Assembly (NCBI GenBank): GCA_012839815.1
Contig: DUMQ01000086.1
Span: 1-33,398, forward strand
Direction: 5' to 3'
Length of the DNA stretch: 33,398 nucleotides
From: Bacillota bacterium
GTDB taxonomy: Bacteria; Bacillota; SHA-98; Ch115; JABLXJ01
The notes beneath the pieces were generated by a model that made no database searches, was not told the origin of the DNA, and saw only the letters and a list, made by a program, of their open reading frames with translations. Position numbers and translations under genes: made by a program. Below, in pieces: positions 3,196 through 33,365 of the stretch; position 1 is the stretch's first letter, and each line of letters starts with the position of its first letter.

Positions 3196-7543
<4,348 letters not shown>

Positions 7544-9674: not shown

Positions 9675-9681
9675 GCATACG

Positions 9682-11208
9682 ATGGATACAAAAAAGGGCG
9701 TTGTTGACGGGCCGGATGTGGCGATAATTGGAGGCGGTCCAGCGGGGCTGGCCGCAGCAATCGGGGCGTGCAATGCAGGCGTGGATCCCGACCGCGTGTT
9801 CATCCTGGAGCGCGGCGAGCGCCTGGGAGGGATACTGCCGCAATGCATTCACCATGGCTTCGGACTACACAGGTTCAAGGAGGAATTGACGGGGCCGGAG
9901 TATGCCGACCGCTTCATCAGAGAGGTCGAACGCCTTGGGGTCAAGGTGCTGCTCAACACGATGGTCATCGAGTTGGGCGCCGACCGGCGCATTACGGCCG
10001 TGAATGATAGCCAGGGCCTGATCAGTTTCAGGCCCAGGGCGGTCGTTTTAGCCATGGGCTGCCGGGAGCGCACCAGGGCCCAGATTCGCATACCCGGGAC
10101 CAGGCCTGCCGGCGTGTTTACGGCGGGAACCGCTCAGAGGCTGGTGAATATCGAGGGCTACCTGCCGGGCCGGCGGGCTGTTATCATTGGATCAGGCGAT
10201 ATCGGCCTCATCATGGCGAGGCGGCTCACCATCGAGGGTGTTGAGGTGGCGGGCGTGTTTGAGATATTACCCTATCCCGGCGGCCTCGCGCGAAATGTCG
10301 TCCAATGCCTGGAGGATTTCGGTATCCCGCTCTACCTCAGCCATACTGTGGTGGAAATCCACGGGCGGGACCGTGTGACCGGCGTGACCGTGGCCAGGGT
10401 GGATAGTAGTGGAGATGCTGTCCCGGGGAGCGAGTCGCACGTCGAATGCGATACGGTGCTTCTTTCGGTTGGATTGATCCCTGAGAATGAACTCTCCCGG
10501 ATGGCCGGCGTGGAGATTGACCCTTTGACGGGCGGCCCCGTTGTAACGGAGAGCTTTGAGACAAGTGTGAGCGGGATATTCGCATGCGGCAATGTATTAC
10601 ACGTTAACGATCTGGTTGATAATGTGAGCGATGAAGGCGAGCGCGCCGGGCGACAGGCGGGGCTTTATGCCACAGGAACCATAGGGACGACCGCAGGGAC
10701 GCCGCGCCCGCGCCCAGCGGTCCGGCCCGGGCCGGTGCCAGGCGAACTGGCGGCCAAGCACGAGGCGGCCCTTTTAGTTGCCCGCGGGCAAGGCGGCCTC
10801 TCAGGATCGAACTTCATGCGGGTTGTATGCACGATCTGTCCCGTTGGATGCATCATAGAGGTCAGGAGGGCACCTGCGGGTGAAGTGGCGACCGCTCCGG
10901 CGGGCGACGGGGGAGGCGCGTTGGAGATAAGAGGGAACAAGTGCAAGCGGGGCGCGACCTACGCGATAGAGGAATTCACGTCCCCGAAGCGAACACTAAC
11001 TACGACGGTGCGAGCGAGGGTGGCTACCTGCGCCGATGTGCTCGTCCCTGTGCGCACGAGTTCCCCTATCGCCAAAGACCTTATCCTTCCGGCGGCGCGG
11101 GAGCTGGCGAGCGTCGAGGTGAGGCCGCCGGTTCGAATCGGCGATGTGATCGTCAGGGACATCCTCGGGTCGGGCGCTGATGTGATTGCAACCGCCAGTC
11201 TTCCTTGA
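9682..11208 (+). CDS. FAD/NAD(P)-dependent oxidoreductase fused to a DUF1667 domain (glycerol-3-phosphate dehydrogenase partner)
   Basis: Protein of 508 residues. Residues 1 to about 370 form a pyridine nucleotide-disulfide type flavoprotein: FAD motif [17 protein letters not shown] near the N-terminus, a second nucleotide motif [17 protein letters not shown], and the closing FAD motif [24 protein letters not shown]. From about residue 395 a DUF1667 domain follows, with Cys-rich [14 protein letters not shown] and a later GNKCKRG, the spacing expected for an iron-sulfur site. In many Firmicutes and Thermotogales DUF1667 is a separate small gene beside this oxidoreductase; here the two are one chain joined by an Ala/Pro/Gly-rich linker. 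Start ATG at 9682 is six bases after GAGGTGAG. It probably forms an electron-transfer complex with the upstream GlpA-like subunit. Confidence 0.85.
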
Positions 11209-11278
11209 GTCGAGTTGGTTTGACTTGTGGAGGAGTGCCTCGTAAGAGCAGGAGCAAAAGAGTTAGGAGCGCTGCGAG

Positions 11279-11860
11279 ATGACACGTTCTGTAGATGAAT
11301 TCATGGCTAAGCTGCGGGCGAACCCCGTTATCGCCGGCGTCAAGCGTCTGGAGGATGTCGATGATGCTATTCGCGCCGGGTTGGATGTCATATTCCTCCT
11401 AGCTGGCACGATATTTGACCTCCGGGAGGCCGTGGCCCGGGCTAAAGCCGGAAACAGGCTCATCTTCGGTCATGTGGACTTAATAGATGGTATAGGCAAG
11501 GACAAGGCCGGGATGAGGTTCCTTGCAGAGGAGATAGGCGTTGACGGCATCTTAACCACGCGGAACGCCCTGGTGAGGGCGGCCATGGCCGAGGGACTCA
11601 TAGCCGTGCAACGATTATTCCTTCTTGATTCGGAATCTCTCAAGACAGGTATCGGTGCGGTGCAGTCGACAAACCCTCACGCTATCGAGATATTGCCTGG
11701 CCTCGTCTTGCCAGCCGTGGTTCACAGGCTCCCCGTTCCCTCGCTCCCCCCGTTTATAGGGGGTGGCCTGATCGAGACAAGGGCGGAACTGGATGCTGTG
11801 CTCGCGGCCGGCGCGCTGGGGGTGTCTACAAGTAAGAAGGACCTCTGGGCGCGGGGATAA
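11279..11860 (+). CDS. glpP: Glycerol-3-phosphate responsive antiterminator GlpP
   Basis: RNA-binding regulator of 193 residues, the usual size of GlpP, with a TIM-barrel-like fold related to glycerophosphodiester phosphodiesterases. Typical segments are NPVIAGVKRLEDVDDAI at the start, VIFLLAGTIFDL, FGHVDLIDGIGKDKAGMRFLAEE, GILTTRNALVRAA, LFLLDSESL, AIEILPGLVLP and the C-terminal GGLIETRAELDAVLAAGALGVSTS. In Bacillus, GlpP with glycerol 3-phosphate stabilises glp leader mRNA and prevents early termination. The stem-loop leader at 8049-8142 is the obvious candidate target. The ATG follows AGGAG by nine bases. No glpK or glpF is present in this window. Confidence 0.93.
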   Translation: MTRSVDEFMAKLRANPVIAGVKRLEDVDDAIRAGLDVIFLLAGTIFDLREAVARAKAGNRLIFGHVDLIDGIGKDKAGMRFLAEEIGVDGILTTRNALVRAAMAEGLIAVQRLFLLDSESLKTGIGAVQSTNPHAIEILPGLVLPAVVHRLPVPSLPPFIGGGLIETRAELDAVLAAGALGVSTSKKDLWARG

Positions 11861-11924
11861 ACCTTATCCCCCGTAGTGCTGAGGTGGGTTACCGCCCTAT
11901 CTCCCGGGGCGAGGTCATAAAAGC

Positions 11925-11953
11925 TTGACAAGCTTGGGTTTGAGCCGTATCTT
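11925..11953 (+). promoter_or_regulatory. Candidate sigma-A promoter for gatA-gatB
   Basis: A perfect -35 TTGACA (11925-11930), a 17-bp spacer and a weaker -10 TATCTT (11948-11953) lie about 110 bp before gatA. The -35 sits between two AAGCTT sequences. It would let gatAB be expressed independently of the glp genes now separating them from gatC. Confidence 0.45.
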
Positions 11954-12063
11954 GGATATAGTAGACATTTATGCGCCTCAATTACCGTCCAAGAAATCCG
12001 GTAGACTTTTTTACGCTAACTTTAGGGTGTACGCTGACTTTATGGAAGGAGGCGGGGTTACTT

Positions 12064-13623
12064 TTGACGTCAACATTGTTGAATGAATTCACCGCTCATG
12101 CCCTGCACGACATGCTTATTAAGGGGGAGATCAGCTCCCTGGATATAGTGCAGGCGGTTTACCGCAGGATAGATGAGGTCGAGCCAGAGATTAGAGCCTT
12201 TGTGACGTTGACGCGTGATGAGGCGCTCAGGCAGGCGATGGATGCTGACGAGAGGATCCGCAGGGGCGAGGATGTCGGACCCCTTACCGGGATCCCCGTT
12301 GCCCTCAAGGACAACCTGTGCACGCGCGGCATCCGCACGACATGCTCCTCGAAGATACTGGAAAATTTTATCCCGCCCTACAGTGCTACCGTGGTTGAGC
12401 GCCTGGAGAGGTGCGGAGCCGTTATTATAGGGAAGACAAATCTGGATGAATTTGCAATGGGATCCTCGACGGAAAACTCAGGATTTTTCACCACGCGAAA
12501 TCCCTGGGACCTGTCGAGGGTTCCGGGTGGCTCAAGCGGGGGGAGCGCGGCCGCCGTAGCGGCCGACGAGACCATTGTGGCGCTGGGCTCGGACACAGGG
12601 GGCTCCATTCGCCAGCCCGCATCCTACTGCGGCGTAGTTGGCCTTAAACCCACGTATGGCACCGTATCCCGCTACGGCCTCGTGGCTTTTGCATCGTCCC
12701 TCGACCAGATCGGGCCGCTGACCAAAGATGTGAGGGACTGCGCCATTGTCATGAACGCCATCGCCGGCTACGATCCTTGCGATTCCACCTCGGTGGACAG
12801 GCAGTACCCTGATTACACGACTTTTTTGGTGCCCGAGGTTAAGGGCTTGCGTTTCGGCATCCCCAGGGAGTATTTCGGCAAGGGATTGGACGCAGACGTG
12901 AGGTCTGCTATCGATAATGCCATAAAGACCTTTGAGGAGATGGGCGCCATACCCGTCGAGGTGTCGCTCCCGCATTCGGAATATGCCCTTGCCACGTATT
13001 ACCTGGTAGCGCCCGCCGAGGCGAGCTCAAACCTCGCCCGCTATGACGGCGTCAAGTATGGTTACAGGGCGCAGGGCCAGCCGGATTCGGTCACCATGAC
13101 TAGGCGCACGCGTCGCGAGGGGTTTGGGGCAGAGGTAAAGCGGCGCATAATGTTGGGGACTTACGCGTTGAGCTCGGGCTATTATGATGCATACTATCTG
13201 AAGGCACTTAAGGTCCGGACGCTACTGGTGAGGGATTTTGAGGCGGCCTTCGAGAAGTGCGATTTCATCCTCTCGCCGACCTCGCCCACGGTGGCATTCA
13301 AAATCGGTGAGAAAATAGACGACCCGCTGTCCATGTACCTGACCGATATCTATACTATTACGGCTAACCTTGTGGCTGTGCCGGGCATTTCAATACCGTG
13401 TGGTTTTGGCCGTGATGAAATGCCCGTGGGCCTGCAGCTTCTCGGTAAGCATTTCGATGAGGGGACCATCATCAGGGCCGCCTACGCCTTCGAGCAGGCA
13501 ACCGGGGGAGCCGGTATCCGGCCCGGGCTCAAGGGGAGACGGCCGGAGTCAAAATGCGGGGATAGAGGCAACGACGGAAACGGGGGCAGGGGGAGCGTTG
13601 GAGGTGGAACCTGTTATGAGTAG
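12064..13623 (+). CDS. gatA: Asp-tRNA(Asn)/Glu-tRNA(Gln) amidotransferase subunit A
   Basis: Amidase-signature glutaminase subunit that releases ammonia from glutamine for the GatB kinase. The Ser-cisSer-Lys triad is visible: Lys82 in GIPVALKDN, the serine pair 157-158 in GGSSGGS and Ser181 in [11 protein letters not shown]. The start is taken as TTG at 12064, eleven bases after AAGGAGG, giving 519 residues. An in-frame ATG at 11971 would add an unconserved hydrophobic leader before that ribosome binding site. After the usual end (AYAFEQAT) there is an extra Gly/Arg/Asn-rich tail of about 35 residues. The stop overlaps the gatB start by eight bases, so translation is coupled. Confidence 0.95.
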
Positions 13624-15277
13624 CAACCTGAGTGGGAGCAGCGACCTGATCGGGAGTGGCAACTTGAGTGGGAGTGGTAACCTGCGTAGCAGCATCAATA
13701 CTAGCGCGAGAGAATCTGAGGGACATAGAGAATATGAAGAATATGAGGTGATAATCGGGCTTGAGGTCCACGCTGAGCTCCTGACCGACTCGAAGATATT
13801 CTGCGGGTGTAGCACTAAATTCGGCGCAGCTCCCAATTCCCACGTGTGCCCCATCTGCCTTGGTATGCCAGGCGTCCTCCCCGTGGTGAACAGGAAGGCT
13901 GTGGAGTTTGCCATTCGGACGGGGCTTGCCCTCAACTGTGAGATTGCTGAGTTTAGCAAGTTTGATAGAAAGAACTATTTCTATCCAGATTTACCAAAGA
14001 ACTACCAGATATCCCAGTATGACCTTCCTCTGTGCAGGAACGGCTATATCGATATTCCCGCTGATACCAGTGTCCTGTCAGGCGGGCCGGACGATAGCCC
14101 TGGTGGACGCCCCGGCGAAAAGGGCAGCTGCACAGGCGCCGGAATACAGGCAGGTCGCGGCCCGGTGAGGAGGATCAGGATAAAACGCGTGCATCTTGAA
14201 GAGGAGGCGGGAAAATCCATTCATGAGGGGCAGAATATAGTCGAGTCCAGCTTTTCGCTGGAGGACTATAACCGCGCAGGCATCCCGTTGATGGAGATAG
14301 TGAGCGAACCGGATATCCGCTCCCCAAGGGAGGCATATGTATATCTCAGCACGTTGAGGGCCATCCTCCAGTATATCGGGGTATCAGACTGTAAGATGGA
14401 GGAAGGTTCGCTGCGTTGTGACGCAAACATTTCGGTGAGGCCTCGCGGCAGCACCCGTTATGGAGCACAGACCGAGCTCAAGAACCTTAACTCGTTTCGT
14501 GCCGTGGAGAAGGGGCTTGCATTTGAGGCAGCACGACAGATAGATGCCCTGAGACGGGGGGAGCGGGTCGTTCGCGAGACCCGGCACTGGGATGAGGCAA
14601 GGGGCATTACCGTCCCGATGCGGAGCAAAGAGGAAGCGCATGATTATCGCTACTTCCCTGAGCCAGATCTGGTGCCGATGGTTATTGAACGCGAGTGGGT
14701 TGAGCGGATCCGCGAGGAACTGCCTGAGCTGCCAGGCGCGCGCAAAGAGCGGCTTATGAAAGAATACGGCCTCCCCGAGTATGATGCCGGCCTCATAACG
14801 GAATCCAGGGCCATGGCTGACTTTTTCGAGGCATGTGCCAGGAATTATAGAGATCCGAAGATCGTGAGCAACTGGGTGATGGGCGAGTTGTCGCGCCTCC
14901 TGAATGAGTCTGGCAAGGACATCAGCGAGGTGCCCGTGACTCCCGGCGGCCTTGCTGATATGTTGAAGCTTATTGATGAAGGGGTTATCAGTGGGAAGAT
15001 CGCCAAGGCCGTGTTTGAGGAGATGTTCAGCACGGGGAAGGCGGCGCGGGAGATCGTGAAGGAGAAGGGCCTCGTCCAGATAGCCGATGAAGGGCAGCTC
15101 CTGAACATTATAGACCAGGTTATAGCCGAAAACCCGGGGCCTGTAGCGGATGTGGCGGCAGGCAAGGATAAGGCCATCACCTTCTTGGTCGGCCAGGTCA
15201 TGCGCAAGACCCAGGGGCGGGCAAATCCCCAGCTTGCGACGAGGCTGCTGCGGGAGAGGCTCCAGGAGGGCAGGTAA
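13616..15277 (+). CDS. gatB: Asp-tRNA(Asn)/Glu-tRNA(Gln) amidotransferase subunit B
   Basis: ATP-dependent kinase/transamidase subunit of GatCAB that phosphorylates the misacylated tRNA and amidates it. Signatures: [94 protein letters not shown] and the C-terminal YqeY-like tRNA-binding domain. The ATG at 13616 follows GGAGGTG. Two features are unusual: an N-terminal Ser/Gly/Asn-rich extension of about 44 residues built from 18-bp DNA repeats, and an inserted Gly/Pro-rich loop of about 30 residues between [10 protein letters not shown] and [17 protein letters not shown]. Both lie outside conserved motifs, so the enzyme is probably functional. Confidence 0.95.
13625..13693 (+). repeat. 18-bp tandem repeat at the 5' end of gatB
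   Basis: Three full copies and a partial fourth of an 18-bp unit close to AACCTGAGTGGGAGTGGC (13625-13642, 13643-13660, 13661-13678, 13679-13693). They encode six-residue repeats of the type NLSGSG. The unit keeps frame, so copy-number change would alter only the length of the N-terminal tail. Confidence 0.8.
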
Positions 15278-15283
15278 TATAGA

Positions 15284-16237
15284 ATGAAAAAGGCCAGGGC
15301 ATGGGCTGACGCCTCATTACTTATCGTGACTTTAATATGGGGTTCGGCTTTTGTCCTGGTTAAGGATGTTGTCCAAACTGTACCGCCTATAGTACTGGTC
15401 GCGACGAGGTTTCTTGCCGCGACCGTTTTATTTGGCATCGTCATGGCGCGGCGCCTCCGGTTTATCAACCGGCGCCTCCTCGCCGCAGGCAGCCTCATAG
15501 GGGTGATCCTGTTCAGCGGGTTCATCCTGCAAACCGTCGGCATTGAATACACGTCGGCCTCAAAGGCTGCGTTCATAACGGCCCTTTCAGTCGTTATGGT
15601 CCCGCTCTTTGCAGCCCTTATACTCAAACGAAAGCCTACAACATTATCCCTCATAGGGGTTGGTCTGGCAACGCTCGGGCTCGCACTCTTGACCCTCCAC
15701 CCTGGTCCGGAGGCCGGCGACCATGCCATTGCCGGGATTCCAGTAAATGTCGGGGATATCATAACCTTTATGGGGGCTATTGCATTTGCTTTGCATATTG
15801 TCTTTGTGGGTAAATATGCCCCTTTTCTGGACGTGCCTTTGCTTGTTTTCATTCAGATGGCCACTGTAACGGCGATAAGCTGGGGCGAGATAGGGATCGG
15901 GGCGGTTATGGAGGGGGTCATAGCCGGCCTGCGAGGCAACCCGGGGATGTTGGGGCCCTCAGGGATTAGCCAGCTGACCTTTGAGACCTGGGCTGCTGTA
16001 TTGTTTTTGGGGGTTTTTGGCACGGCCTTAGCATTCTTTATACAAAATGCTGCCCAGAGATTTACGACCCCGACGCGCGTGGCAATTATCTTCTCCACCG
16101 AGCCCGTTTTTGCCGCGATCTTCGCCCGGGTCTTTCTTGGGGAGACGCTCGGGATGAGGGGGGTGCTCGGGTCAATCCTCATCCTGGCCGGGACCATCGT
16201 AGCAGAGATGCCAGCAAGATTTCTTGAGAGATATTAG
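15284..16237 (+). CDS. EamA/DMT-superfamily transporter
   Basis: Membrane protein of 317 residues with about ten hydrophobic helices in two repeated EamA halves. The first opens with LLIVTLIWGSAFVLVKDVV and RFLAATVLFGIVMARRL; the second opens around VGDIITFMGAIAFALHIVFVGKYA and ends with FSTEPVFAAIFARVFLGETL, the usual family ending before the last helix. Such proteins export or exchange amino acids, metabolites or nucleotides; the substrate cannot be told from sequence. The ATG is seven bases after the gatB stop, with AGGAGG lying 15 bases upstream inside gatB, so it may be read from the gatAB transcript. Confidence 0.88.
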   Translation: MKKARAWADASLLIVTLIWGSAFVLVKDVVQTVPPIVLVATRFLAATVLFGIVMARRLRFINRRLLAAGSLIGVILFSGFILQTVGIEYTSASKAAFITALSVVMVPLFAALILKRKPTTLSLIGVGLATLGLALLTLHPGPEAGDHAIAGIPVNVGDIITFMGAIAFALHIVFVGKYAPFLDVPLLVFIQMATVTAISWGEIGIGAVMEGVIAGLRGNPGMLGPSGISQLTFETWAAVLFLGVFGTALAFFIQNAAQRFTTPTRVAIIFSTEPVFAAIFARVFLGETLGMRGVLGSILILAGTIVAEMPARFLERY

Positions 16238-16247
16238 ATTTAGATGA

Positions 16248-16275
16248 TTTAGATATTGAAATTTAGATATTGAAA
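16248..16275 (+). repeat. Perfect 14-bp tandem duplication after the DMT transporter gene
   Basis: TTTAGATATTGAAA is present at 16248-16261 and again at 16262-16275, with a partial ATTTAGAT copy just before. The region is AT-rich and noncoding. Confidence 0.75.
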
Positions 16276-16292
16276 ATAGAGGGCCGGGGTGC

Positions 16293-16320
16293 TTGGAAAT
16301 AATTCAGCTTATGCTATAAT
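16293..16320 (+). promoter_or_regulatory. Extended -10 sigma-A promoter for the methyltransferase gene
   Basis: A -35 TTGGAA (16293-16298), a 16-bp spacer and -10 TATAAT (16315-16320) with a TGC extended -10 element. Transcription would start near 16327, leaving a leader of about 195 bases if the gene starts at 16522. The leader contains three near-copies of TTATACAAGGG (16356-16366, 16367-16377, 16383-16393). Confidence 0.6.
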
Positions 16321-16521
16321 CTCGTGTACAAGGAAGTCGTACTTAAAGAAGCGCATTATACAAGGGTTATACAAGGGAATGATTACACAAGGGAACGCAT
16401 GCACCGCGACAGTTCCAGGACGGCTGCATCGCGGATGCCACAGTTATTGTCAGCTGCTGCTATTATCGGCAGCTGCGCGTTCCTCGAATCTTACAACACT
16501 GGTGGGAGGGGCGTTTTTGAG

Positions 16522-17523
16522 GTGCGGTTGATAGACATAGTAAAGCAATCCCCGAGGCGTCTTGTGATTCCTTTGATGGGCTATCCCGGTGCTCGTCTTA
16601 CAAACTCAACCATAAGGCAAAACGAGTTCAACAGCGACCTTCACTATAGGTCCATCTATAAACTGGTTGAGAGGTTTGATCCTGATGCCGTCTTCTTTAT
16701 GATGGACTTATCCGTTGAAGCAGGGGCCCTGGGCCTCCAGGTCCGTTATCCGTTGAGCGAGTCCGCCACCGTAGAGCATCATCCAGTCAAGAGCGTTGCT
16801 GATCTCGAGCAGTACCAGGTCCTTGACCCGTTATTTGACGCGCGAGTGAAATCATATATAGAGACGATGAAGTTAATGGCAAGGAGCCTTAACATCCCCA
16901 AGGGTGGCTATGTGATCGGCCCCTTTACGCTGGCGGGCCTCTTGATGGGGGCAGTCGAGATAGCGACTGCAACGATCACCGAGCCCGACCTGGTGCTCTC
17001 CGTGGTGAACTTCGCGGAGAACATCATCATCCGCTACGCCAAGGAGCTGATCCGGGCCGGGGCGGATATTATCGCGATACTCGAGCCAACGGCCACCTTC
17101 CTCTCCCCCAAGGCGTTTGCCAGGTTCTCGGGTGCATCGGTGAGCAGGATCGTGAGGTTCCTCGATGCCATGACCATATTGCACATCTGCGGTAACACCA
17201 CCCACCTGATCGAGGCCATGTGCGATACGGGGGTTCAAGGCTTGAGCCTGGATTCAGTGGTTGATTTCCCCGCAGTGGCTTCAAGGGTGAGGAGCGACGT
17301 GGTGTTGATAGGCAATATAGACCCTGTCCGGGTGATGGTGAATGAGACGCCGGATGGGGTCAAGCGGGCAGTGAATAACCTGCTTGAGGCGATGGAGCCC
17401 TATCCGAATTTCATCCTGAGCACCGGGTGCGACCTGCCGCTCGAGACCCCTCTTGAGAATATCCAGGCCTTTATGGAGGCGGGCAAGGCATGGCGGCGGC
17501 AAAGAGCGGACAGCGCAGCATAG
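16522..17523 (+). CDS. Uroporphyrinogen decarboxylase superfamily protein, MtaA/CmuA-type methyltransferase
   Basis: Protein of 333 residues in the URO-D/MtaA superfamily. In anaerobes the MtaA-like members move methyl groups between a corrinoid protein and coenzyme M or another acceptor. The zinc ligand pattern of that branch is visible: His-x-Cys in TILHICGNTTHLI near residue 220 and a later Cys in STGCDLPLETPLENI near 302. GPFTLAGLLMG and GADIIAILEPTATFLSPKAF are family segments. Heme-pathway uroporphyrinogen decarboxylase is unlikely given the HxC...C motif. The start is chosen as GTG 16522, about ten bases after GGGAGGGG. The frame stays open upstream to 16324 and an ATG at 16399 follows AAGGGA, but that extension is unlike the family. 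No corrinoid protein gene is adjacent. Confidence 0.8.
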   Translation: MRLIDIVKQSPRRLVIPLMGYPGARLTNSTIRQNEFNSDLHYRSIYKLVERFDPDAVFFMMDLSVEAGALGLQVRYPLSESATVEHHPVKSVADLEQYQVLDPLFDARVKSYIETMKLMARSLNIPKGGYVIGPFTLAGLLMGAVEIATATITEPDLVLSVVNFAENIIIRYAKELIRAGADIIAILEPTATFLSPKAFARFSGASVSRIVRFLDAMTILHICGNTTHLIEAMCDTGVQGLSLDSVVDFPAVASRVRSDVVLIGNIDPVRVMVNETPDGVKRAVNNLLEAMEPYPNFILSTGCDLPLETPLENIQAFMEAGKAWRRQRADSAA

Positions 17524-17623
17524 GGAATCCTTGAGCAGCGCACGGATCTGTACGGATCTCACTGTAGAAGATGCGTTTGAGCAGTCCAGGGGATTCTTGC
17601 GCCGCGCGGGGAGCGGGACGTAG

Positions 17624-17650
17624 CCGCGGCGGGCTAATCACCCGCCGCGG
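17624..17650. other. Perfect GC-rich stem-loop at the 3' end of the P-loop ATPase gene
   Basis: Ten-bp arms CCGCGGCGGG (17624-17633) and CCCGCCGCGG (17641-17650) enclose a 7-base loop that contains the ATPase stop codon. It lies between two convergent genes. Neither strand has a following T-run, so it is not a standard intrinsic terminator, though it could protect 3' ends. Confidence 0.55.
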
Positions 17651-18512
17651 ACGAAGCCGGTGATACCTCGGCTGCGTACCTCAATATGCGAGCAAGGGTC
17701 TGCTCTCGCAGCTCTGTGATGCCATCGAAATCCATTGCCGGCGTATAGAAGGATTCCATCCGGTCGTGCTCGGTCTTTGCTTCGCCGATGAAGCGGATTG
17801 CACGGTTGAAGAGCCGCTCGAATATCTCGCGATCTTCGGCCATTATCGATAAAAACTTGCTGGTTATTGAAGGGGAGAGACACTCATTCATGTCGATTAT
17901 GGTGTCCTCCGGCGCAGGGGTGTAGGTGTGCGGCTCGATTGACTTTGTCAAGGCGATCCCGAGGTCTATGATAACAACGTGCTCGACCTTCTCAGGATTG
18001 AGCGGGCAGTGGTAGAATTCCACATCGTGCCCGCGCTCGATAGCTGCGGTTGCCACCTTGTAGAGGAGTGTCGATTTACCCGTACCCGGGTCGCCCTCGA
18101 TAATGTATTTCGTCTGGCAGGGGCCGACGATCGTGTCCAGGTAATTCATCAGGCCGTCCGGGGTTATGGCGCTGGCGAATAAATGCCTCGACCGGCCAAC
18201 TATGAACGACGCCGGACGGGTACCGAAGATCTCCCTGATTATCTGCTCGGCCTTTTTATTTGCCTTTCCGAAATCCATCCCCTTGAGGTTGCATGCCTCC
18301 CAGTCGTCGTAAACCGCCTTGGCCGCCCTCAGGAACCGGTAGGCATGTTCAAAAAGCCTCGCTATATTCCCATTTGCTTCGAGAATCTCCTCCTTATGCT
18401 TGCGGAGCTGGGCCTCATCCCAGTAGTCGCCCAGGTGAATGATCTCGTCGACGGCACCGGGCGTACGGGGGTCGTAGATGTGAAGGGCAGTAACCAGATT
18501 TAAATCGGGCAT
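17634..18512 (-). pseudogene. P-loop ATPase (PRK06851-like tandem-duplicated family), truncated at its 5' end
   Basis: The remaining 292 residues show an internal duplication. Residues 3 to about 95 (ALHIYDPRTPGAVDEIIHLG...LFEHAYRF...NLKGMDF) align with the C-terminal part beginning IDLGIALTKSIEPHTYTP (...LFNRAIRF...TPAMDF). Between them is one complete nucleotide-binding half with RHLFASAITPDGLMNYLD and Walker A EGDPGTGKST near residue 144. The first copy therefore lacks its own P-loop half of about 85-90 residues. I recall the family as a Firmicute protein of about 360-380 residues with two such halves. The break falls at a duplicated 13-bp sequence where the mobile island starts. A leftover ATG at 18512 could still start a product, without a clear ribosome binding site. 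Function of the family is unknown to me. Confidence 0.75.
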
Positions 18513-18526
18513 CCCAGATTTAAATC
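18494..18526. repeat. 13-bp direct repeat at the host/island junction (candidate attachment-site region)
   Basis: CCAGATTTAAATC occurs at 18494-18506 and 18514-18526, a 20-bp period. The first copy lies in the truncated ATPase frame and the second just upstream of its remaining ATG, where the frame meets stop codons. Left of it is host sequence; 28 bp to the right the toxin-antitoxin pair begins. This is the best candidate for the left end of the island, but a serine-recombinase core cannot be proved without the other end. Confidence 0.4.
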
Positions 18527-18554
18527 AAAAACATCATTGGAAAGGTATTAAGGA

Positions 18555-18836
18555 TTAAGGGTGTAGGCCTCGACCACGAAGCCTTTCAAGGTAACGGTGC
18601 AAGACCATTCGGATCAGAGTGGTCTGGCCGATACCGGCTTTCTCGGCGACGCGCTTGAATGTTTCCAGGTCTTCACGCGGCAGTCGTAGAGAGAGGTGCA
18701 CCAGTTCCTTTTCCGGAGCTCTCTTCGTTTCAATTTTTACTTCTTCCAGACCCATCAGGTCCATGCTGTCGGTCTCGTCAAAGAATTTTGCAAGTTCATC
18801 GATATTATCGGTATCGGGAGGATATTTTCCGGCCAT
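18555..18836 (-). CDS. brnA: BrnA/CopG-like ribbon-helix-helix antitoxin
   Basis: Protein of 93 residues with an acidic N-terminal half and a C-terminal ribbon-helix-helix: beta strand ELVHLSLRLP, then helices EDLETFKRVAEKAG and TTLIRMVLHRYLERL. It follows the toxin gene by four bases on the same strand, with GGGGG at the toxin stop serving as ribosome binding site. In BrnTA modules the antitoxin binds the toxin and, as the RHH DNA-binding partner, represses the shared promoter. A palindrome that fits such an operator lies upstream at 19146-19168. The toxin-first gene order is the normal one for brnTA. Confidence 0.82.
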   Translation of the reverse strand: MAGKYPPDTDNIDELAKFFDETDSMDLMGLEEVKIETKRAPEKELVHLSLRLPREDLETFKRVAEKAGIGQTTLIRMVLHRYLERLRGRGLHP

Positions 18837-18840
18837 AAAG

Positions 18841-19131
18841 CTACCCCCTTTCGTAATATCGTCGTTCGCGGTCGGTCATGTCCCGGGCGGTTATCGGGAG
18901 CGCGACTCCCTGTCCTTCGTCTAGAAGCACCACGTATATATACCGTCCACCGCTAGTCCTACCGTAGAAATAGTAAATATAATGTTCCGGGTCCCTTTCA
19001 GACCTTGGCCCACGGCGGATAATATGTTTTTCATCATCGAATACAACCTCTTCCACCTCATCAGTGTCGATTCCATGGCGGGCTATATGTGCAATGCGAT
19101 CGAGCCTCCAGTTAAGCTTTTCGATCCGCAT
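18841..19131 (-). CDS. brnT: BrnT-family ribonuclease toxin
   Basis: Protein of 96 residues with BrnT family features: RLDRIAHIARHGIDTDEVEEVVFDD near the N-terminus and the C-terminal PITARDMTDRERRYYERG, which matches the conserved ARDMT..ERR.Y ending. BrnT is a RelE-fold RNase that slows translation when BrnA is lost. The start is the ATG at 19131, seven bases after a perfect AGGAGG. A start 12 codons upstream would overlap the promoter and operator. The pair sits at the extreme left end of the island, consistent with stabilising it. Confidence 0.85.
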   Translation of the reverse strand: MRIEKLNWRLDRIAHIARHGIDTDEVEEVVFDDEKHIIRRGPRSERDPEHYIYYFYGRTSGGRYIYVVLLDEGQGVALPITARDMTDRERRYYERG

Positions 19132-19145
19132 TTGATAACCTCCTA

Positions 19146-19199: not shown

Positions 19200-20720
19200 T
19201 CACTCTAGAAATTTGATAGGAACCCGGGCACGAATAGTTATCTCTCCAGGTGTCACCACGATTTGATCCACTAGCATGCGAACAAGGTGCTTACGGCCTT
19301 CGAAGTCTAGGTTGTCCAGGGAGGCCCTTACTTCACGCAAAGCATCCCGGATATCCTGAGGAGTAGGTGCTTGGCGGATGACTGCTAGCCGAGAATTAAT
19401 CTGCGATTTACGCTCCAATAATCGGTTTTCCCGGGTTTTGAGTGCCTCAAGACGCTCCTCTATCTCCGATATAGGTACAAGGCCCCGTTGAAAAATATCA
19501 ACCAATCGGCTGCGTTCCTTGGTTACAGAATTTAGCTCACTTTCGATCATGACAAGCTCACTCTGATCAATTGATTCGGAGTCCTTCCGGAGTTGCTCTT
19601 CCAGGGCAGCGCAGAGCTCGTCGGGATTCTGGACCCAGAGTACAACACGGGACCACACCTGGCGTTCTAAGAAGTCACGAAGCACGTAGGGTTGCACACA
19701 TTTAGGACGCCCTGGGATGCCTGGATTACGGGCGGTACAGACATAGTAGATACGATGCTTTTGCCGAATCGTCCCTCTGAAGCCGTGCATCGTGGCGCCA
19801 CATATTCCGCAACGAAGGAGCCCGGATAAAAGATAGTTTTCTATAGCCCGCCCCGGCTTAAGTTGCCGCGCTCTTTCCATGCGTTCCTGCACAGCGTTCC
19901 ATAGGTCTTTGCTGATTATAGCAGGGACTTGGACCGTTACCCAATGCTCTTTGGGGTAAAACTTTATCTTAACTCGTTCTTCCGGTGGGCGAAACTTATT
20001 AGCTTTGCCCCCGCGATGGTCCCATCTCTGGAGGATTAGTTCTCCTATATAAGTGCGATTATGCAATATTCTCTTGACGGTCGCCTTCTGCCATATGCTG
20101 CCCTTGGGCGATGGAATACCGAAATCATTTAACCGGGCTGCTATGGATTTAGGCCCCATGTCTTCGGTAGCACACCAGGTATATATTTGACGTACTATGG
20201 CGGCTTCCTCGGGGATAATTTCGAGGCTTGAATCCTTATACCGGTAGCCATATACTCCAGGCATATGTGTGACCTTGCCCTCCAGGGCCTTACGTCGTTT
20301 ACCTCTCATAGAACGCTCACGGATTTTCTCCTTCTCATATTCGGCGATGGCGCCCCTGAGAGAGTAAAAGAGTTTCCCCTCGGGGGTGTCTTTCCAATCG
20401 AAGTTGATGAACTCAAGGCGAACTCCGGCACGTTCAATCTCCTCGGTTACTATTAGCTGGTGAGAGAGGTTACGCGCTAGGCGGTCGGGATCATAGCAAA
20501 CGAAAAGGTCGATATGCCCCTGACGGATAAGGTCACGCGCCCGGGTAAGCCCAGGACGTTCAAGAATGCTGCCGGATATACCCTCATCCACGCACTCGAT
20601 GATATCTGTTGCACCGAGAGACTGGGCTTTCCTTTTGCAAACATCGAGTTGGTCTATCAGGCTGTATCCATGACGAGCTTGGTCTTCTGTAGATACGCGG
20701 CAATAGACAATCGCAATCAA
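19200..20720 (-). CDS. Large serine recombinase (site-specific integrase)
   Basis: Protein of 506 residues with the three-part layout of large serine integrases: N-terminal resolvase domain with nucleophile Ser10 in VYCRVSTEDQARHG and the conserved DRLARNLSHQLIV region, the recombinase domain (GVYGYRYKD onward), and a zinc-ribbon domain with cysteine pairs in LLRCGICGATMHG and YVCTARNP...CVQ, followed by a coiled-coil-like stretch (LVMIESELNSVTKERSRLVDI...). It cuts and joins attP and attB through a Ser-DNA link and normally needs a directionality factor to excise. The start is TTG at 20720, after GGAAAGGG; a stop codon six codons upstream excludes a longer start. It reads toward the broken ATPase gene. 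Skin-type and phage elements use the same enzyme class. Confidence 0.95.
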   Translation of the reverse strand: MIAIVYCRVSTEDQARHGYSLIDQLDVCKRKAQSLGATDIIECVDEGISGSILERPGLTRARDLIRQGHIDLFVCYDPDRLARNLSHQLIVTEEIERAGVRLEFINFDWKDTPEGKLFYSLRGAIAEYEKEKIRERSMRGKRRKALEGKVTHMPGVYGYRYKDSSLEIIPEEAAIVRQIYTWCATEDMGPKSIAARLNDFGIPSPKGSIWQKATVKRILHNRTYIGELILQRWDHRGGKANKFRPPEERVKIKFYPKEHWVTVQVPAIISKDLWNAVQERMERARQLKPGRAIENYLLSGLLRCGICGATMHGFRGTIRQKHRIYYVCTARNPGIPGRPKCVQPYVLRDFLERQVWSRVVLWVQNPDELCAALEEQLRKDSESIDQSELVMIESELNSVTKERSRLVDIFQRGLVPISEIEERLEALKTRENRLLERKSQINSRLAVIRQAPTPQDIRDALREVRASLDNLDFEGRKHLVRMLVDQIVVTPGEITIRARVPIKFLE

Positions 20721-21510: not shown

Positions 21511-21855
21511 TTAGACTTCTGACAGCATAGCAGCTATCTCCTGTGCAAATTCTTCTGCCCGTTTCTCTGTGCTAGAATAATGAGAATCTATGCTTAAGAT
21601 AGAGGGTTTATTAGGCAAGTCCGAAACCAAGTGATCGACTTCATGGAAAAAGGTCTTGACCTGATCCTCCTTGCTCAGGTTCTTGTTAATAAGTATATGC
21701 TTCCGCCCCCTTCGTGACACATAGATTATACCTTTATCTGTAAATCCAAGATCTTCTATCCGTAGATGCACGTCATACCGTGCCAGTACTTCATCCTGTG
21801 ATAACTCGCAATCAGAAAACAGTTTAAAAAGGTGCTGGAATTTATCTGGACTCAA
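21511..21855 (-). CDS. ImmA/IrrE-family metallopeptidase
   Basis: Protein of 114 residues with the zinc peptidase motif HEVDH (His71-Glu72...His75) and a downstream glutamate in KRAEEFAQEIA that fits the third metal ligand. ImmA-type proteases cleave the repressor of ICEBs1-like elements and phages so that the element can induce. Its start overlaps the end of the repressor gene by four bases, so the two are translated together, exactly the pairing known for ImmR/ImmA. It is short for the family but holds the whole catalytic core. Confidence 0.88.
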   Translation of the reverse strand: MSPDKFQHLFKLFSDCELSQDEVLARYDVHLRIEDLGFTDKGIIYVSRRGRKHILINKNLSKEDQVKTFFHEVDHLVSDLPNKPSILSIDSHYSSTEKRAEEFAQEIAAMLSEV

Positions 21856-22256
21856 CCATCTTCCCGCTCCTCTTCGTCTTCTATAGCCTTTATCACGCGG
21901 ATGATTTTTCGTATATCCTCAGGGGCGATGTCTTTAACTTGACGAGCTAACAGCTGTAAATCCTCACGCTTCTTAAGCTGATTCCAGAATTCCAAGAGCT
22001 CAGGGTCAGCTTCTAGAGCCCCGTCGATCTTAGATGTATCGGGTAAGTGGGGGTAGTCGCTTCGACCAATTAAATAATCAACTGTAACATTGAAATACCC
22101 GGCTAAGGTATCGAGAGTGGTTACATCTGGCATACGCTTACCCGTTTCATATTGAGCGATAGTGGCTGGAGCCACACCTAGATCGCGGGCTAAATCGCGT
22201 TGGGTTATGCCACGGATATGCCTTAGTTCTTTGAGTCTTTCTCCGAGATTACTCAA
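21852..22256 (-). CDS. XRE-family lysogeny repressor (ImmR/CI-like)
   Basis: DNA-binding repressor of 134 residues: N-terminal helix-turn-helix (LGERLKELRHIRGITQRDLARDLGVAP...) with recognition helix APATIAQYETGKR, a connecting region ending in LDTLAGYFNVTVDYLIGR, and an acidic C-terminal part. The start is taken as TTG at 22256, just after GAGGAGGAGGTG. A longer frame to an ATG at 22343 exists, but a perfect TATAAT and the operator palindrome lie inside it, so that segment is the promoter. It is divergent from the Cro-like gene and overlaps the ImmA-like gene. It probably holds the element silent by binding 22293-22317. Confidence 0.88.
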   Translation of the reverse strand: MSNLGERLKELRHIRGITQRDLARDLGVAPATIAQYETGKRMPDVTTLDTLAGYFNVTVDYLIGRSDYPHLPDTSKIDGALEADPELLEFWNQLKKREDLQLLARQVKDIAPEDIRKIIRVIKAIEDEEEREDG

Positions 22257-22278
22257 GGGCACCTCCTCCTCAGAGTCT

Positions 22279-22284
22279 ATTATA
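22279..22284 (-). promoter_or_regulatory. -10 element of the repressor promoter
   Basis: TATAAT on the minus strand, 23 bp before the TTG start of the repressor gene. The -35 region falls inside the palindrome at 22293-22317 and matches consensus weakly (CTTCCA at 17-bp spacing), as expected for an autoregulated promoter. Confidence 0.5.
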
Positions 22285-22292
22285 TCACTAAA

Positions 22293-22317
22293 TGTGAGCG
22301 CTGGAAGCTCGCTCACA
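22293..22317. promoter_or_regulatory. Operator palindrome of the lysogeny switch
   Basis: Perfect 8-bp arms TGTGAGCG (22293-22300) and CGCTCACA (22310-22317) with a 9-bp centre. It lies between the divergent repressor and Cro-like genes and covers the repressor -35 region. A half-site-like TGTGAC recurs at 22362-22367, abutting the -10 of the rightward promoter. Confidence 0.65.
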
Positions 22318-22344
22318 AAAAGACAAATTTTCTTCAAAAACATA

Positions 22345-23728: not shown

Positions 23729-24025
23729 GTGAATGACGTGACGGAAGATTTGTTCGAAATCATCCAGGATAACCTCAACGAAAAGGATCCTTTCGAAAGG
23801 CTCCAATACCTGATCGATATCAGAAACTATCTCCGTAACGGCGGAGGCAAGAAGCTCGCTGAGCGAATCACCGACTACATCGAAGATCACGCCCTCGAAG
23901 AAGGCCTCTGCCCGTCATGTGGAGCGGAACTCGAAATCGAGACATGGCATGAGCCACGGCCGTACGGCTCCACGGTGGCCTATGAGGAACTGGCAGAGGC
24001 CCACTGCCCGAATGGGTGCATGTAG
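23729..24025 (+). CDS. Small zinc-ribbon protein
   Basis: Protein of 98 residues with start GTG at 23729 after AGAGGGGG. An N-terminal helical part (VTEDLFEIIQDNLNEKDPFERL) is followed by a zinc-ribbon: CPSCGAEL near residue 62 and a closing CPNGC at the C-terminus. This could bind nucleic acid or a protein partner. It directly precedes a Cas4-like nuclease gene, with which it may be coexpressed. Confidence 0.65.
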   Translation: MNDVTEDLFEIIQDNLNEKDPFERLQYLIDIRNYLRNGGGKKLAERITDYIEDHALEEGLCPSCGAELEIETWHEPRPYGSTVAYEELAEAHCPNGCM

Positions 24026-24050
24026 CAACGACTCCCGGGGAGGAATAGCA

Positions 24051-25079
24051 GTGGCTGTTGAGCAGGCGGTGGCCATCACACAGGGGTTAATAGAGCGCAA
24101 GATGCAGGAAGTCCTTCAGAGCGATTTCGATCCCAGGGAGTTCCGGCTTTCGGAATCCGGGGCCTGCCCGCGAAAGCGGGTGGCCCGGGTTCTTGGGTAT
24201 CCTGCGGAGGAGCCCGACGAAGAAGACGCAGCATACTTCGAGCGCGGGAACATTGTGGAGGCTTGGGTTGTGAGTTTGTATCGTGAGGCGTTCCCACGCA
24301 GGTGCCGGACGCAGGTGGAGGTCAGGACTCCTACGGGAGAAGTCGGACATATAGACCTGTGGTTTCCGGCCGAAAAACGGATAGTGGAAGTAAAGAGTGT
24401 CAGCATCGGCGCGCGGGAGCTTCCCAGGCCGGAGCATGTCGCCCAGGTGCAGGCGTACTTGCATTTCTTCAGAAACAGCAGGGGAGAGCGAAAGGCTGAA
24501 AATGCTGAGATAGTCTACATAAAATGGGGAGCCGGGTTGCAGTCGGAAGTCTTCCCGATCATGTACGATCCCGTGCAGGGTGAGAAAATAGAGCAGGAAC
24601 TCAGAAGGCTGCACGAATACCGTGACCGTGGCGAACTTCCGCCACTGCCCCGTGATGCAAAGCCGGAGGCGTACCCTTGCTCCTGGCGTAACAGAGCAGG
24701 TCAAGTGAAATGCCCGTACTGGTCGATGTGCTGGACCGATGCCAAGAACCTTCCGCCTTTAGATGGTGAGGCGATGGCTGACAAGGTCACAAGGTATGCT
24801 GAGATATGCGAAAAGCTTCGCGCAGCCAAGGCCGTTGTAGATGACCTGGAGGGCGCGAAGAGGCTCCTTGAGCAGTATTTCTCACCCGTGATGGACGCAT
24901 CCGGAGCCGACGCGCTCCGGGCATCGGGCTATCTCTTGAAACGCACGAAGATAGCCGGGCATATCTCATACGACGTCAAGGCTGCGATCGCAGCCGGTGT
25001 CGTTAGCGAGCAGGCCCTGGAGCCGTTCAAGAAAGAGTCCGCAGGCTCATTCCGGTGGAGCCTTAGAAAGGAGAAGTAG
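24051..25079 (+). CDS. PD-(D/E)XK exonuclease with Cas4-like cysteines
   Basis: Protein of 342 residues, start GTG at 24051 seven bases after GGGGAGGA; the frame stays open upstream but without a ribosome binding site. The nuclease core is visible: Asp in EVGHIDLWF and E-x-K in RIVEVKSVS. A cysteine early in the core (GACPRKRVAR) and a C-terminal cluster (YPCSWRN...VKCPYWSMCW) match the arrangement that holds a [4Fe-4S] cluster in Cas4/AddB-type nucleases. Next to the directionality factor and replication genes it is probably a phage recombination exonuclease, not a CRISPR adaptation protein; no Cas1, Cas2 or repeat array is present. The C-terminus is helical and may bind DNA. Confidence 0.8.
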   Translation: MAVEQAVAITQGLIERKMQEVLQSDFDPREFRLSESGACPRKRVARVLGYPAEEPDEEDAAYFERGNIVEAWVVSLYREAFPRRCRTQVEVRTPTGEVGHIDLWFPAEKRIVEVKSVSIGARELPRPEHVAQVQAYLHFFRNSRGERKAENAEIVYIKWGAGLQSEVFPIMYDPVQGEKIEQELRRLHEYRDRGELPPLPRDAKPEAYPCSWRNRAGQVKCPYWSMCWTDAKNLPPLDGEAMADKVTRYAEICEKLRAAKAVVDDLEGAKRLLEQYFSPVMDASGADALRASGYLLKRTKIAGHISYDVKAAIAAGVVSEQALEPFKKESAGSFRWSLRKEK

Positions 25080-25081: not shown

Positions 25082-26188
25082 ATGCCTATCAAGGGACTGA
25101 GCGAAGTCAGGAGACTACCACGCATAGGAAAGGTCCGGCTTGGGATCAAAGAGACAAGCCAAAAATCAGGCAACGAATTCCCAAGGCCGGTGGATTACTT
25201 CGTTGTGAACGCTGATCAGACAACATCCGAAGCTGCCGCTGAGGCGTTCCACAGGGTCTATGGCGATAAGCCCCGGGAGCTTGACATCATGTTCCCGGTT
25301 GAGGACCGTGACAAATTCTTTGCGCAGTTCTACCGCAGATACGGAAGTGGGACAGGCCTCCTCTGCAAAGGTGACGGTGAGACTGCGATGGAACTCAACA
25401 GGGAGACCGGGGAAATCCAAGAAATAGAGTGCAATCCGACGGAATGCGAGTGGGTCCAGAAGGGTCATTGCAGGCCCGTCGGCACCTTGCAGTTCCTGCT
25501 GTACAAAGTCCCAGGGCTTGGGGTGTGGCAGATAGACACCTCGAGCTATAACTCCATCATCAACCTCAATTCTGCCATCGATTTCGTTCGCGCGCTCACC
25601 GGTGGCCGTATCGCCATGATCCCCCTCAAGCTTGTGATCCGGCCCAAAGAGGTCCAGGTGGAGGGCAAGAAGAAGACCGTGTACGTCCTTGACCTTGCCC
25701 AGGAAGGGATCAGGCTCCAGGACATCCTGACCGCCTCGAAGGCGCCGCTTTCTCAATTTTTGATCCCGGGTGCGGACTTCAATGAGGTGCCTGACGACCT
25801 GTATCCGGCAAGTTTGATCGATTCGGAGCCGGAGGGCGTAACGCCAAAGCCGGTAGACGAGTGTGAGACTTCAGACCACCCGGCCAAGATTGAGCCCAAG
25901 AGCAAGCCGGAAGTCAAGCCCAAGGCTTCCGCTAGGACAACAAACGGCAGGGCCAAGGCTGGCGGTGACTGGGAGGAACAACCGATCTCCAAAGGCCAAC
26001 GAAATTACATCCTCAAACTCGCCGGGCAATTCTATGGGGACATCCCTGAAAAAGAGAAGATTCAAAAGCTCCTCGAGGAATGGGAGTTCGACCTTGATAC
26101 CGCCACATACAAAGAGGCTGTGGAGCAAATCAACATCATGCAGAACAGCATCAACGCCGACAAAACCAGACAAGAAGCCGCCCAGTAA
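25082..26188 (+). CDS. phiC31 gp3-like recombination directionality factor family protein
   Basis: Protein of 368 residues, ATG two bases after the previous stop, with GAAAGGAGAAG upstream. From memory it resembles the gp3-like family that switches large serine integrases from integration to excision. Shared-looking segments are ELDIMFPVEDRDKFF, the central cysteines CNPTECEWVQKGHC, and VPGLGVWQIDTSSYNSIINL followed by ALTGGRIAMIPLKLVI. A Lys/Pro-rich linker (about 265-295) leads to a helical C-terminal domain starting near ISKGQRNYILKLA. A large serine recombinase lies in the same element, which supports the call. The alternative is a phage ssDNA-metabolism protein of the same fold; many homologues are annotated only as hydrolase or metal-binding protein. 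Confidence 0.65.
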   Translation: MPIKGLSEVRRLPRIGKVRLGIKETSQKSGNEFPRPVDYFVVNADQTTSEAAAEAFHRVYGDKPRELDIMFPVEDRDKFFAQFYRRYGSGTGLLCKGDGETAMELNRETGEIQEIECNPTECEWVQKGHCRPVGTLQFLLYKVPGLGVWQIDTSSYNSIINLNSAIDFVRALTGGRIAMIPLKLVIRPKEVQVEGKKKTVYVLDLAQEGIRLQDILTASKAPLSQFLIPGADFNEVPDDLYPASLIDSEPEGVTPKPVDECETSDHPAKIEPKSKPEVKPKASARTTNGRAKAGGDWEEQPISKGQRNYILKLAGQFYGDIPEKEKIQKLLEEWEFDLDTATYKEAVEQINIMQNSINADKTRQEAAQ

Positions 26189-26350: not shown

Positions 26351-27187
26351 ATGAACTACTTCGAAGAGTTGAACCTGTTTTGGCGATCAGGAATAACCAA
26401 CTACCTCACTCCCAGTGCCAGTTTGCTATACCTGGCCATTTTGGATATAGCGAACGAGCGCTACTGGCCCGAGGTAGTGGTAATTCCATCGACGCTATTA
26501 CAAGGTCGAACCGGGATTGAAGACCCTCAGACCTTCTGGAAAGCGAGAAATAGACTCAAACAAGCAGGGCTTATTGAGTTTATTTCACGTCAAGGAAGCA
26601 GCAGGTGTGGCTATAAAGTGCTTGGGACACAAAACGGGCTCCTCCAGATGGCCAAAAGTACTATAAAAAATCCATGTGGTTTAGATAGTAGTCAGGATAG
26701 TTTTGAAGGTGATTTTGGAGATAGTTTTGAGGATGGTTTTCAAGATAGTACTGGAGGAGAAACTCAAGTAGAAACTCAAGGTGAAACTGGAGGAGAAACT
26801 CAAGTCTTCAATCCCTTGAGCGCCAACGATCTCAGGCCTCCTAAAACAAAACGAAACAAAACAAATAATAGTACTTCTTTACTTCGTAAAGAAGACGCTT
26901 CGCGTGATTCGCCACCTACAAACAAGGACTTGATTATAGAGCTCGTGCAGAGGTACCGGGAGATCCCTGGAGTTACCCCTAGAAAAGGCGATTACGCCTT
27001 CATGGGGCGCATGTATAACAAGCACGGCTATGATGAAGTCGTCATCGCCTTGGACTCTCTGCGCTCAATCATGCAGAGGCAGCATGTGGAGGACCCCATG
27101 GTCTATCTCAACAGCATCCTGCAGCGCCGGCAAAAGGGCAGAATAGAGCTCCCTGAAGCGAGCGAGATATTCGGAGGGGACGCGTGA
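26351..27187 (+). CDS. Phage replication initiator, O/DnaD-like winged-helix protein
   Basis: Protein of 278 residues with an N-terminal winged-helix-like domain (residues 1-95: TNYLTPSASLLYLAILDIAN, then ARNRLKQAGLIEFI), a long acidic low-complexity linker (about 112-160) and a C-terminal helical domain (DLIIELVQRYREIPGV...YLNSILQRRQKG) like the DnaD/O helicase-loading region. The domain layout is that of phage initiators, whose gene often contains the origin. The linker is coded by iteron-like repeats (26684-26803) and followed by an AT-rich tract. ATG at 26351 follows GAGGGAGATTAGCG. The stop TGA overlaps the ATG of the primase-helicase by one base, so initiator and helicase are coupled. 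Confidence 0.7.
   Translation: MNYFEELNLFWRSGITNYLTPSASLLYLAILDIANERYWPEVVVIPSTLLQGRTGIEDPQTFWKARNRLKQAGLIEFISRQGSSRCGYKVLGTQNGLLQMAKSTIKNPCGLDSSQDSFEGDFGDSFEDGFQDSTGGETQVETQGETGGETQVFNPLSANDLRPPKTKRNKTNNSTSLLRKEDASRDSPPTNKDLIIELVQRYREIPGVTPRKGDYAFMGRMYNKHGYDEVVIALDSLRSIMQRQHVEDPMVYLNSILQRRQKGRIELPEASEIFGGDA
26684..26803 (+). repeat. Iteron-like 24-bp repeats inside the O-like gene
   Basis: Two close 24-bp copies beginning GATAGTTTTGA (26696-26719 and 26720-26743) lead into a third, diverged copy (26744-26767). GAAACTCAAG then recurs on a near-24-bp rhythm up to 26803. A short GATAGTAGTCAG copy at 26684 opens the series. The protein encoded is acidic low-complexity linker. Confidence 0.65.
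26841..26894. other. AT-rich tract with 9-bp hairpin, candidate duplex-unwinding part of a phage origin
   Basis: After the iteron-like repeats comes an A-rich tract (26841-26873, repeated AAACAAAACG-like runs) and then a perfect 9-bp stem CTTCTTTAC/GTAAAGAAG (26874-26882 with 26886-26894, 3-base loop). In lambda, iterons inside gene O are followed by such an AT-rich region. Confidence 0.45.
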
Positions 27188-33327: not shown

Positions 33328-33336
33328 CCTGCCACT

Positions 33337-33365
33337 ATCATAGCGAACCACATGACAGTTGTCAA
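33337..33365 (-). promoter_or_regulatory. Promoter of the IS transposase
   Basis: On the minus strand: perfect -35 TTGACA (33365-33360), 17-bp spacer, -10 TATGAT (33342-33337). The -10 lies only ten bases before the chosen ATG at 33327, so a transcript would be leaderless or nearly so. Confidence 0.5.

Follow-up and report, generated by a model that had tools for sequence, protein, structure and literature searches.

We find that a prophage sits in the codon for His95 of the host's only gene for a dual-wield NTPase (dwNTPase, NCBI family PRK06851), and that the two half-genes on either side of it are both intact and in register. The integration is site-specific and exact to the base, at a dinucleotide CA, and both half-genes are conserved. 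Serine-recombinase elements of other, partly unrelated kinds have inserted at this codon of the gene in further families of the phylum. That unrelated elements in other bacteria occupy this one codon suggests that the gene is rejoined by excision when a spore is made. We therefore consider it rather likely that the prophage is a skin-like intervening element at a new, recurrent target, integrated as described below and presumably excised during sporulation.

The split gene, its missing half and the empty site

The DNA analysed here (the window, 33,398 nucleotides) is the entire contig C70 of a genome (G000) in 163 contigs, which is 99.7% complete. An open reading frame on its minus strand (17634-18512, 292 aa) encodes a P-loop protein without the N-terminal P-loop half. 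Homologues were found in 51 of 61 related genomes; the full-length ones, mostly open frames of 361-455 aa, have the additional P-loop part and do not begin at the residue where the window frame starts. The initial annotation had read the surviving protein as a tandem duplication whose first copy lacks its nucleotide-binding half, and we see the same: the extra N-terminal part of the relatives aligns at 25-40% identity with residues ~106-196 of the window protein, that is, with its second P-loop half. The dwNTPase is thus an internal duplication. The features around the cut are:

16324-17523, plus strand: gene of the URO-D family (PF01208) in the host flank, syntenic in the empty-site genome G001 (blastn)
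17634-18480, minus strand: 3' part of the dwNTPase gene (PRK06851), from the third base of the His95 codon to the stop; 95% amino acid identity to the full-length G001 protein; NCBIfam NF005320
18481-18482, minus strand: core dinucleotide CA, the first two bases of the His95 codon and the crossover common to attL and attR; sole in-frame join, and centre of the attP dyad (best of 41 offsets)
18483-18512, minus strand: attP arm, which gives the ATG and the first 10 codons (MPDLNLVTAL) of the window frame and is not host DNA; the G001 alignment ends at 18473, and the arm complements that on C40

The missing 5' half had been expected beyond the far edge of the island, and it is indeed found there, on another contig of the same genome (C40:9259-9540, plus strand) at the far end of the element. 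Genome-wide there is one other match to the gene, C40:9271-9546 (plus strand), in a 105-aa frame that opens with an ATG at 9259 and stops shortly past the junction. A second, intact copy of the dwNTPase gene was not found in G000. Upstream of the split gene C40 carries a gerA germination operon; this host flank also holds a 96-base inverted repeat, 98% identical (L023:3-98 and 8728-8823), with partial copies on contig C130.

A related genome that lacks the island is G001, from the same genus. Its contig C42 has the empty site, an intact 376-aa gene with both flanks syntenic. Positions 1-9544 of C40 and 8171-18473 of the window match one continuous stretch of G001, with ends that lie ~5-7 bases apart (the gap between the two alignments, positions 10766 and 10772 of L024, is five bases), and gene order is conserved for ~9 kb on either side. 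Joining the host 5' part through the CA of codon 95 to the host 3' part from the third base gives a protein of 376 aa, which holds both P-loops (GGPGVGKS and GDPGTGKS) and matches the G001 protein at 357 of 376 residues (95%) without a gap. A precise in-frame reconstitution, as known from skin-type elements, is therefore possible.

Since MPDLNLVTAL is encoded by element DNA, what is absent from the window frame amounts to 94 codons and two bases of codon 95, and the cut lies at 18481-18482. The initial annotation was thus right that the 5' end is lost and that the cut coincides with the island border; its estimate of about 85-90 codons was too low, and the cut is neither at the start of the frame (18512) nor at 18540. 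It also held that part of the host gene is gone, which is too strong for a gene that is split with both halves intact. That the gene is the integration site, as it had proposed, is supported by the empty site, the restored frame and the CA-centred attP described below. For the split gene against G001 omega is 0.047, compared with 0.065-0.18 for intact neighbours, a value that mostly reflects divergence before the insertion.

The prophage and its attachment sites

The initial annotation had placed a large serine recombinase in the element at the border, and this is what we find. The window side of the element contains:

18555-18836, minus strand: CopG-type antitoxin, BrnA-like (PF12441, PF01402)
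18841-19140, minus strand: BrnT toxin (PF04365)
19200-20720, minus strand, as the split gene: large serine recombinase (integrase) of 506 aa, Pfam Resolvase PF00239, Recombinase PF07508 and Zn_ribbon_recom PF13408; phrog_95 integrase
21511-21855, minus strand: IrrE/ImmA-like metallopeptidase (PF06114)
21852-22343, minus strand: cI-type HTH repressor (Pfam HTH_3; phrog_8)
23919-25079, plus strand: RecE-like/Cas4-domain phage exonuclease (phrog_434, phrog_1706, phrog_1990)
25082-26188, plus strand: Gp3-like recombination directionality factor (RDF) of 368 aa, likely excision partner of the integrase (PF18897 Gp3-like, 3.3e-63)
27184-29067, plus strand: phage primase/DnaB-like helicase (PF03796, PF08708; phrog_19, phrog_16345)
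29908-30453, plus strand: RusA Holliday-junction resolvase (PF05866)
31807-33351, minus strand: DDE transposase of an insertion sequence at the contig end (PF01609), which is an assembly break and not the element end; the last 127 bases of the contig recur exactly at the ends of C52 and C130

The combination of Resolvase, Recombinase and zinc-ribbon domains in ~500 aa places the integrase among the large serine recombinases. Together with the Gp3-like protein it resembles the phiC31-type pair of integrase and gp3, the pairing being presumed here; unlike that system, the RDF of this element has only weak phage relatives.

Exact overlaps of 127 bases link the right end of C70 to C52, the other end of C52 to C54, and the other end of C54 to the tail of C40. 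Along this path the element measures ~78.6 kb, with a consistent phage gene order; C130 is the alternative at one fork. Among the genes of C54, which is linked to both ends, are those for terminase, portal, sheath, tape measure, baseplate and endolysin (PHROGs), the gene set of a contractile-tailed temperate phage. After the tail and lysis genes follows a sugar block (L122) with a LacI regulator, GH42, GH2, an ABC transporter, an FGGY kinase and a dehydrogenase, and the C40 end of the element (L023:9850-12392) adds a dehydrogenase and a GH4 enzyme. Judged by its genes, the element is a prophage with metabolic cargo, perhaps a defective one because insertion sequences and sugar genes lie inside it.

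Another contig of G000, C15 (L076-L077), ends within a terminase gene. We considered this terminase as the missing late region and rejected it, since nothing links C15 to the element and since it has, by the look of its sequence, integrase-like and repressor genes of its own; it is a second, unlinked prophage contig.

When the ends of the element are joined at CA, the attP site reads cgatttaaatctggttactgccctt-CA-tggcgcagtaacatgatttaaatcc. Across the CA 18 of 24 positions pair (mean of shuffles: 6.8), and offset 0 is the best centre of the 41 offsets within 20 bases. Such a dyad around a central dinucleotide that is common to attB is characteristic of large serine recombinases; excerpts of PMC5595907 describe the att site of gin in the same way. 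The first junction alignment had given CACAT as the core, which was dropped because joining there shifts the frame, and was replaced by the in-register CA. The split is scarless and therefore reversible.

Could the two junctions be an artefact of assembly or binning, with C40 and the window contig coming from different strains, or with chimeric junctions? The assembly is in 163 pieces, and at the right end of the window C52 and C130 compete with the same 127 bases. Against this, two separately assembled junctions yield a palindromic attP centred on the same base, the contigs of the path are joined by exact overlaps in a consistent phage gene order, and the same type of junction is found inside single contigs elsewhere, e.g. 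in the one-contig genome G084. We regard an artefact as extremely improbable.

Both fragments might also be translated as they stand, the 3' frame from the ATG supplied by the element and the short 5' frame from its own, and assemble into a split protein. The ATG in the attachment arm is in frame, the window frame lies downstream of the recombinase and the toxin-antitoxin genes on the same strand, and the 5' frame also ends shortly after the junction. On the other hand, no convincing ribosome-binding site precedes the ATG as far as we can read the sequence, the 3' fragments of two other split genes (G017 and G050, see below) gain unrelated added sequence, and proteins of the dual-wield fold have their C-terminal helix packed against the N-terminal domain (PMC10949312, excerpts). 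A functional split protein is very unlikely.

Recurrence at one codon and relatives of the recombinase

Next, we looked at 399 genomes of the phylum, of which 283 carry the gene. A dwNTPase gene split at codon 95, with both junctions found, is present in ten of the 399, the window's genome included; the nine others (G017, G043, G050, G065, G084, G090, G185, G198 and G233) belong mostly to other families, and two of them, G065 and G084, are near-complete genomes. For each of the ten, this CA is again the best centre of the restored attP (offset 0), and joining the halves gives an open reading frame. Outside the window's genome the inserts measure 5 to 28 kb, and their contents are mostly quite different. 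There are only five types of attP, so that the ten cases have an independent weight of about five: type A (agggtcgtgt) in G017, G043, G065, G084, G185 and G198, type B in the window, type C in G050, type D in G233 and type E in G090. The type-A recombinases are 92-97% identical, G065 excepted, and the type-A 5' junction also occurs in two named records (L055, L056: Symbiobacterium sp. Tomsk_54_12, Clostridia AS04akNAM_48).

An ordinary prophage insertion would be a simpler reading: a conserved codon in a conserved gene is hit, the gene is inactivated, and the element leaves only when the phage is induced, independently of sporulation. According to excerpts of PMC10083194, serine recombinases often pick conserved sites in conserved genes without any regulatory purpose, and many site-specific ones converge on one conserved gene (Mg-chelatase/protease, prolyl isomerase); convergence on one conserved site is already known. 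It also suits an ordinary insertion that the window element is a full prophage with structural genes, and that one split gene decays after loss of its recombinase. In this case (G065:C1, L057-L058) the type-A recombinase is reduced to a 31-aa C-terminal remnant and the first P-loop is altered to GGPGVDKS, so some insertions do become permanent; this is as expected if lost excision makes the break permanent, and it is one case only. It speaks against an ordinary insertion that all ten joined frames are open, that an intact second copy was not found in G000, G017, G050, G090 or G198, and that the group of related recombinases is dominated by sigK and dwNTPase targets.

For this last point we read the DNA next to the 30 best matches of the window recombinase in genomes of the phylum and identified representative target fragments by NCBIfam and Pfam. 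The window's own locus was set aside, as was G002, where the recombinase is cut by the contig end after 237 aa. Among the remaining 28 best relatives, 12 adjoin N- or C-terminal fragments of sigK, and 7 lie at the 3' half of a dwNTPase gene or, in G233, inside that island. One (G011) lies where its contig stops, and of the dwNTPase gene that genome has only a 5' fragment. The others are next to fragments of ligD (2) or feoB (2), next to a yhbH gene (1), or without an assigned target (3). The loci beside ligD, yhbH and feoB fragments, possibly further interrupted genes, are L092 (G261:C54), L097 (G222:C6), L095 (G348:C50), L094 (G174) and L098 (G284). Relatives beside ligD and feoB mean that the group is not confined to mother-cell genes.

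In a maximum-likelihood tree, the recombinases of types A, B, C and D fall into one group (98/92) with two feoB-adjacent sequences, near those that target sigK; the recombinases of G090 and G363 are far off, and the supported branches require the dwNTPase label to have changed three times or more. The closest integrase among sequenced phages is that of Alicyclobacillus phage MMB025 (38% over 97%). According to excerpts of PMC13141910, this phage is integrated in sigK. It has three integrases, any of which may be the one that acts there. A scan of IMG/VR with the window recombinase returned no relatives. Several of the sigK insertions (L099 in G209, L100 in G279, L101 in G343, L103 in G364, L105 in G323) are ~1.8 kb long and contain little but a serine recombinase antiparallel to sigK; lying between the N- and C-terminal halves of sigK, they amount to minimal 'skin' elements.

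Several further observations concern the same codon. Three genomes (G021, G113 and G302) have an intact gene and one or more extra 5' fragments that end in element sequence, and in G363 the gene is divided between two contigs, the first with a 5' fragment and element sequence, the second with the remainder; all of these look like remnants. At L027 (G021:C5:176000-195000), L067 (G113) and L068 (G302), one to three 5' fragments precede the intact dwNTPase gene, each ending at or near the His95 codon. Perhaps the elements bring a 5' half of their own, or the fragments are scars of repeated integration. On G233:C20 (L064, ~3896-5494 on the gene-sense strand) the recombinase frame continues across an intact attP-like site (SGTAPHVAVPP), and the C-terminal end of the recombinase is present a second time at the 3' junction; two elements appear to lie there in tandem. 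Contig C11 of G040 (L030) stops within the dwNTPase gene at a distance of about five bases from the His95 cut, as expected for a hidden insertion or for a mixed population of integrated and excised forms. Finally, type-A elements (e.g. L063, G198) have a conserved frame of 60-63 aa directly upstream of the recombinase, overlapping it in some; it has no Pfam match and is a candidate directionality factor.

The role of the gene in sporulation and the likely fate of the insertion

By NCBIfam profile and by its twin P-loops, two tandem halves in one chain of ~370 aa, the split gene belongs to PRK06851 and so to the dual-wield NTPases, as these proteins were named in 2024 (PMC10949312, excerpts). 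The best-scoring family is PRK06851.1-6, with 357 bits over the full length; this is below the narrow curated cut-off of 556, and we therefore take the protein as a family-level relative and not as that equivalog. A sequence search of the PDB with the NTPase matched no solved structure. The passages of the sole paper that we found under PRK06851 (PMC10949312) report no interruption of the gene.

The C. difficile family member, CD3298, is in the sigma-E regulon (PMC3789822, excerpts). The mother cell expresses it, and after its deletion less than 1% of spore dipicolinate remains (DPA; PMC5509370, excerpts); the mutant spores are heat sensitive (PMC10449524, excerpts). By analogy, although the family has paralogs, the split gene probably acts in the mother cell to load Ca-dipicolinate into the spore. 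In the 399 genomes, spoIVA is present in 274 of 283 carriers of the gene and in 62 of 116 non-carriers (odds ratio 26.5, not corrected for relatedness); the window's genome itself has spo0A, spoIVA and an uninterrupted sigK. The tie to spore formers and the DPA-less, heat-sensitive spores of C. difficile mean that a permanent loss should be costly, which again argues against an ordinary insertion. In favour of it, our scan for sigma-E-type promoters, which covered 47 upstream regions together with the integrase and the RDF, gave overall no more than shuffles do. Taking the evidence on both sides, we find an ordinary insertion rather unlikely.

The reading that we prefer is an excision timed to sporulation, on the grounds of gene function, relatedness to sigK elements, lack of decay (omega as given above) and the precedent of skin. 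The large serine recombinase would have integrated the prophage of ~78.6 kb at the CA of the His95 codon. In vegetative cells the gene would be split and not needed. During sporulation the Gp3-like directionality factor (25082-26188) would turn the recombinase round, and recombination of attL with attR would release the prophage and rejoin the gene without a scar. The element would then do at a new target what skin, SP-beta (in spsM), vfbin, gin and yin do at theirs. In the skin element of C. difficile the recombinase is constitutive, and only the mother cell expresses the RDF.

Known elements resemble this one to different degrees. The skin elements in sigK (B. subtilis; C. difficile with CD1231/CD1234) share a serine recombinase with a directionality factor and the scarless in-frame split of a mother-cell spore gene, and, among the best 28, the window recombinase has its closest kin in split sigK genes. 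They differ in that the target here is the dwNTPase gene and sigK is intact, in that sporulation control is here only presumed, and in the candidate RDF, a 368-aa Gp3-like protein compared with the 53 aa of CD1234 (PMC10747680, excerpts). The vfbin element of B. weihenstephanensis likewise interrupts a gene of the dipicolinate pathway, spoVFB (cited in excerpts of PMC10747680), which encodes DPA synthase, whereas the gene here would serve Ca-DPA packaging. Phage MMB025, too, is large, has structural genes and is integrated in a sporulation gene, in its case sigK, and infectious virions have been shown for it (PMC13141910, excerpts), whereas our element is known from its genes. The elements gin in gerE and yin in yabG split late spore genes, and gin has ImmR/ImmA-like genes (PMC5595907, excerpts), as we find at 21511-22343; their targets are different and their excision has been shown experimentally. 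The sporulation genes with known intervening elements listed in excerpts of PMC10747680 are sigK, spsM, spoVFB, gerE and yabG. What appears to be new is the target gene, the repeated use of a single codon in several families, and the association of the recombinase group with spore genes.

A broader picture is plausible, if still tentative. A recombinase lineage may have become specialised for genes of sporulation (sigK, the Ca-DPA NTPase and, less often, yhbH and ligD) across spore-forming Firmicutes, with His95 as a general docking site that was reached at least twice independently and with excision in the mother cell; programmed rearrangement would then be common in spore formers.

For genome annotation, the finding is a warning that PRK06851 genes which look truncated can be two intact halves, and it yields a set of recombinases with matched attB and attP sites. 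If the gene is rejoined in sporulation, it would join the few sporulation genes known to be assembled by excision, as the second one of the dipicolinate pathway. The repeated hits on one codon in several families and the kinship with the recombinases that split sigK turn scattered cases (skin, SP-beta, vfbin, gin, yin) into a testable pattern, in which elements occupy genes that stay off before commitment to sporulation and where an insertion would be free of cost if excision is timed.
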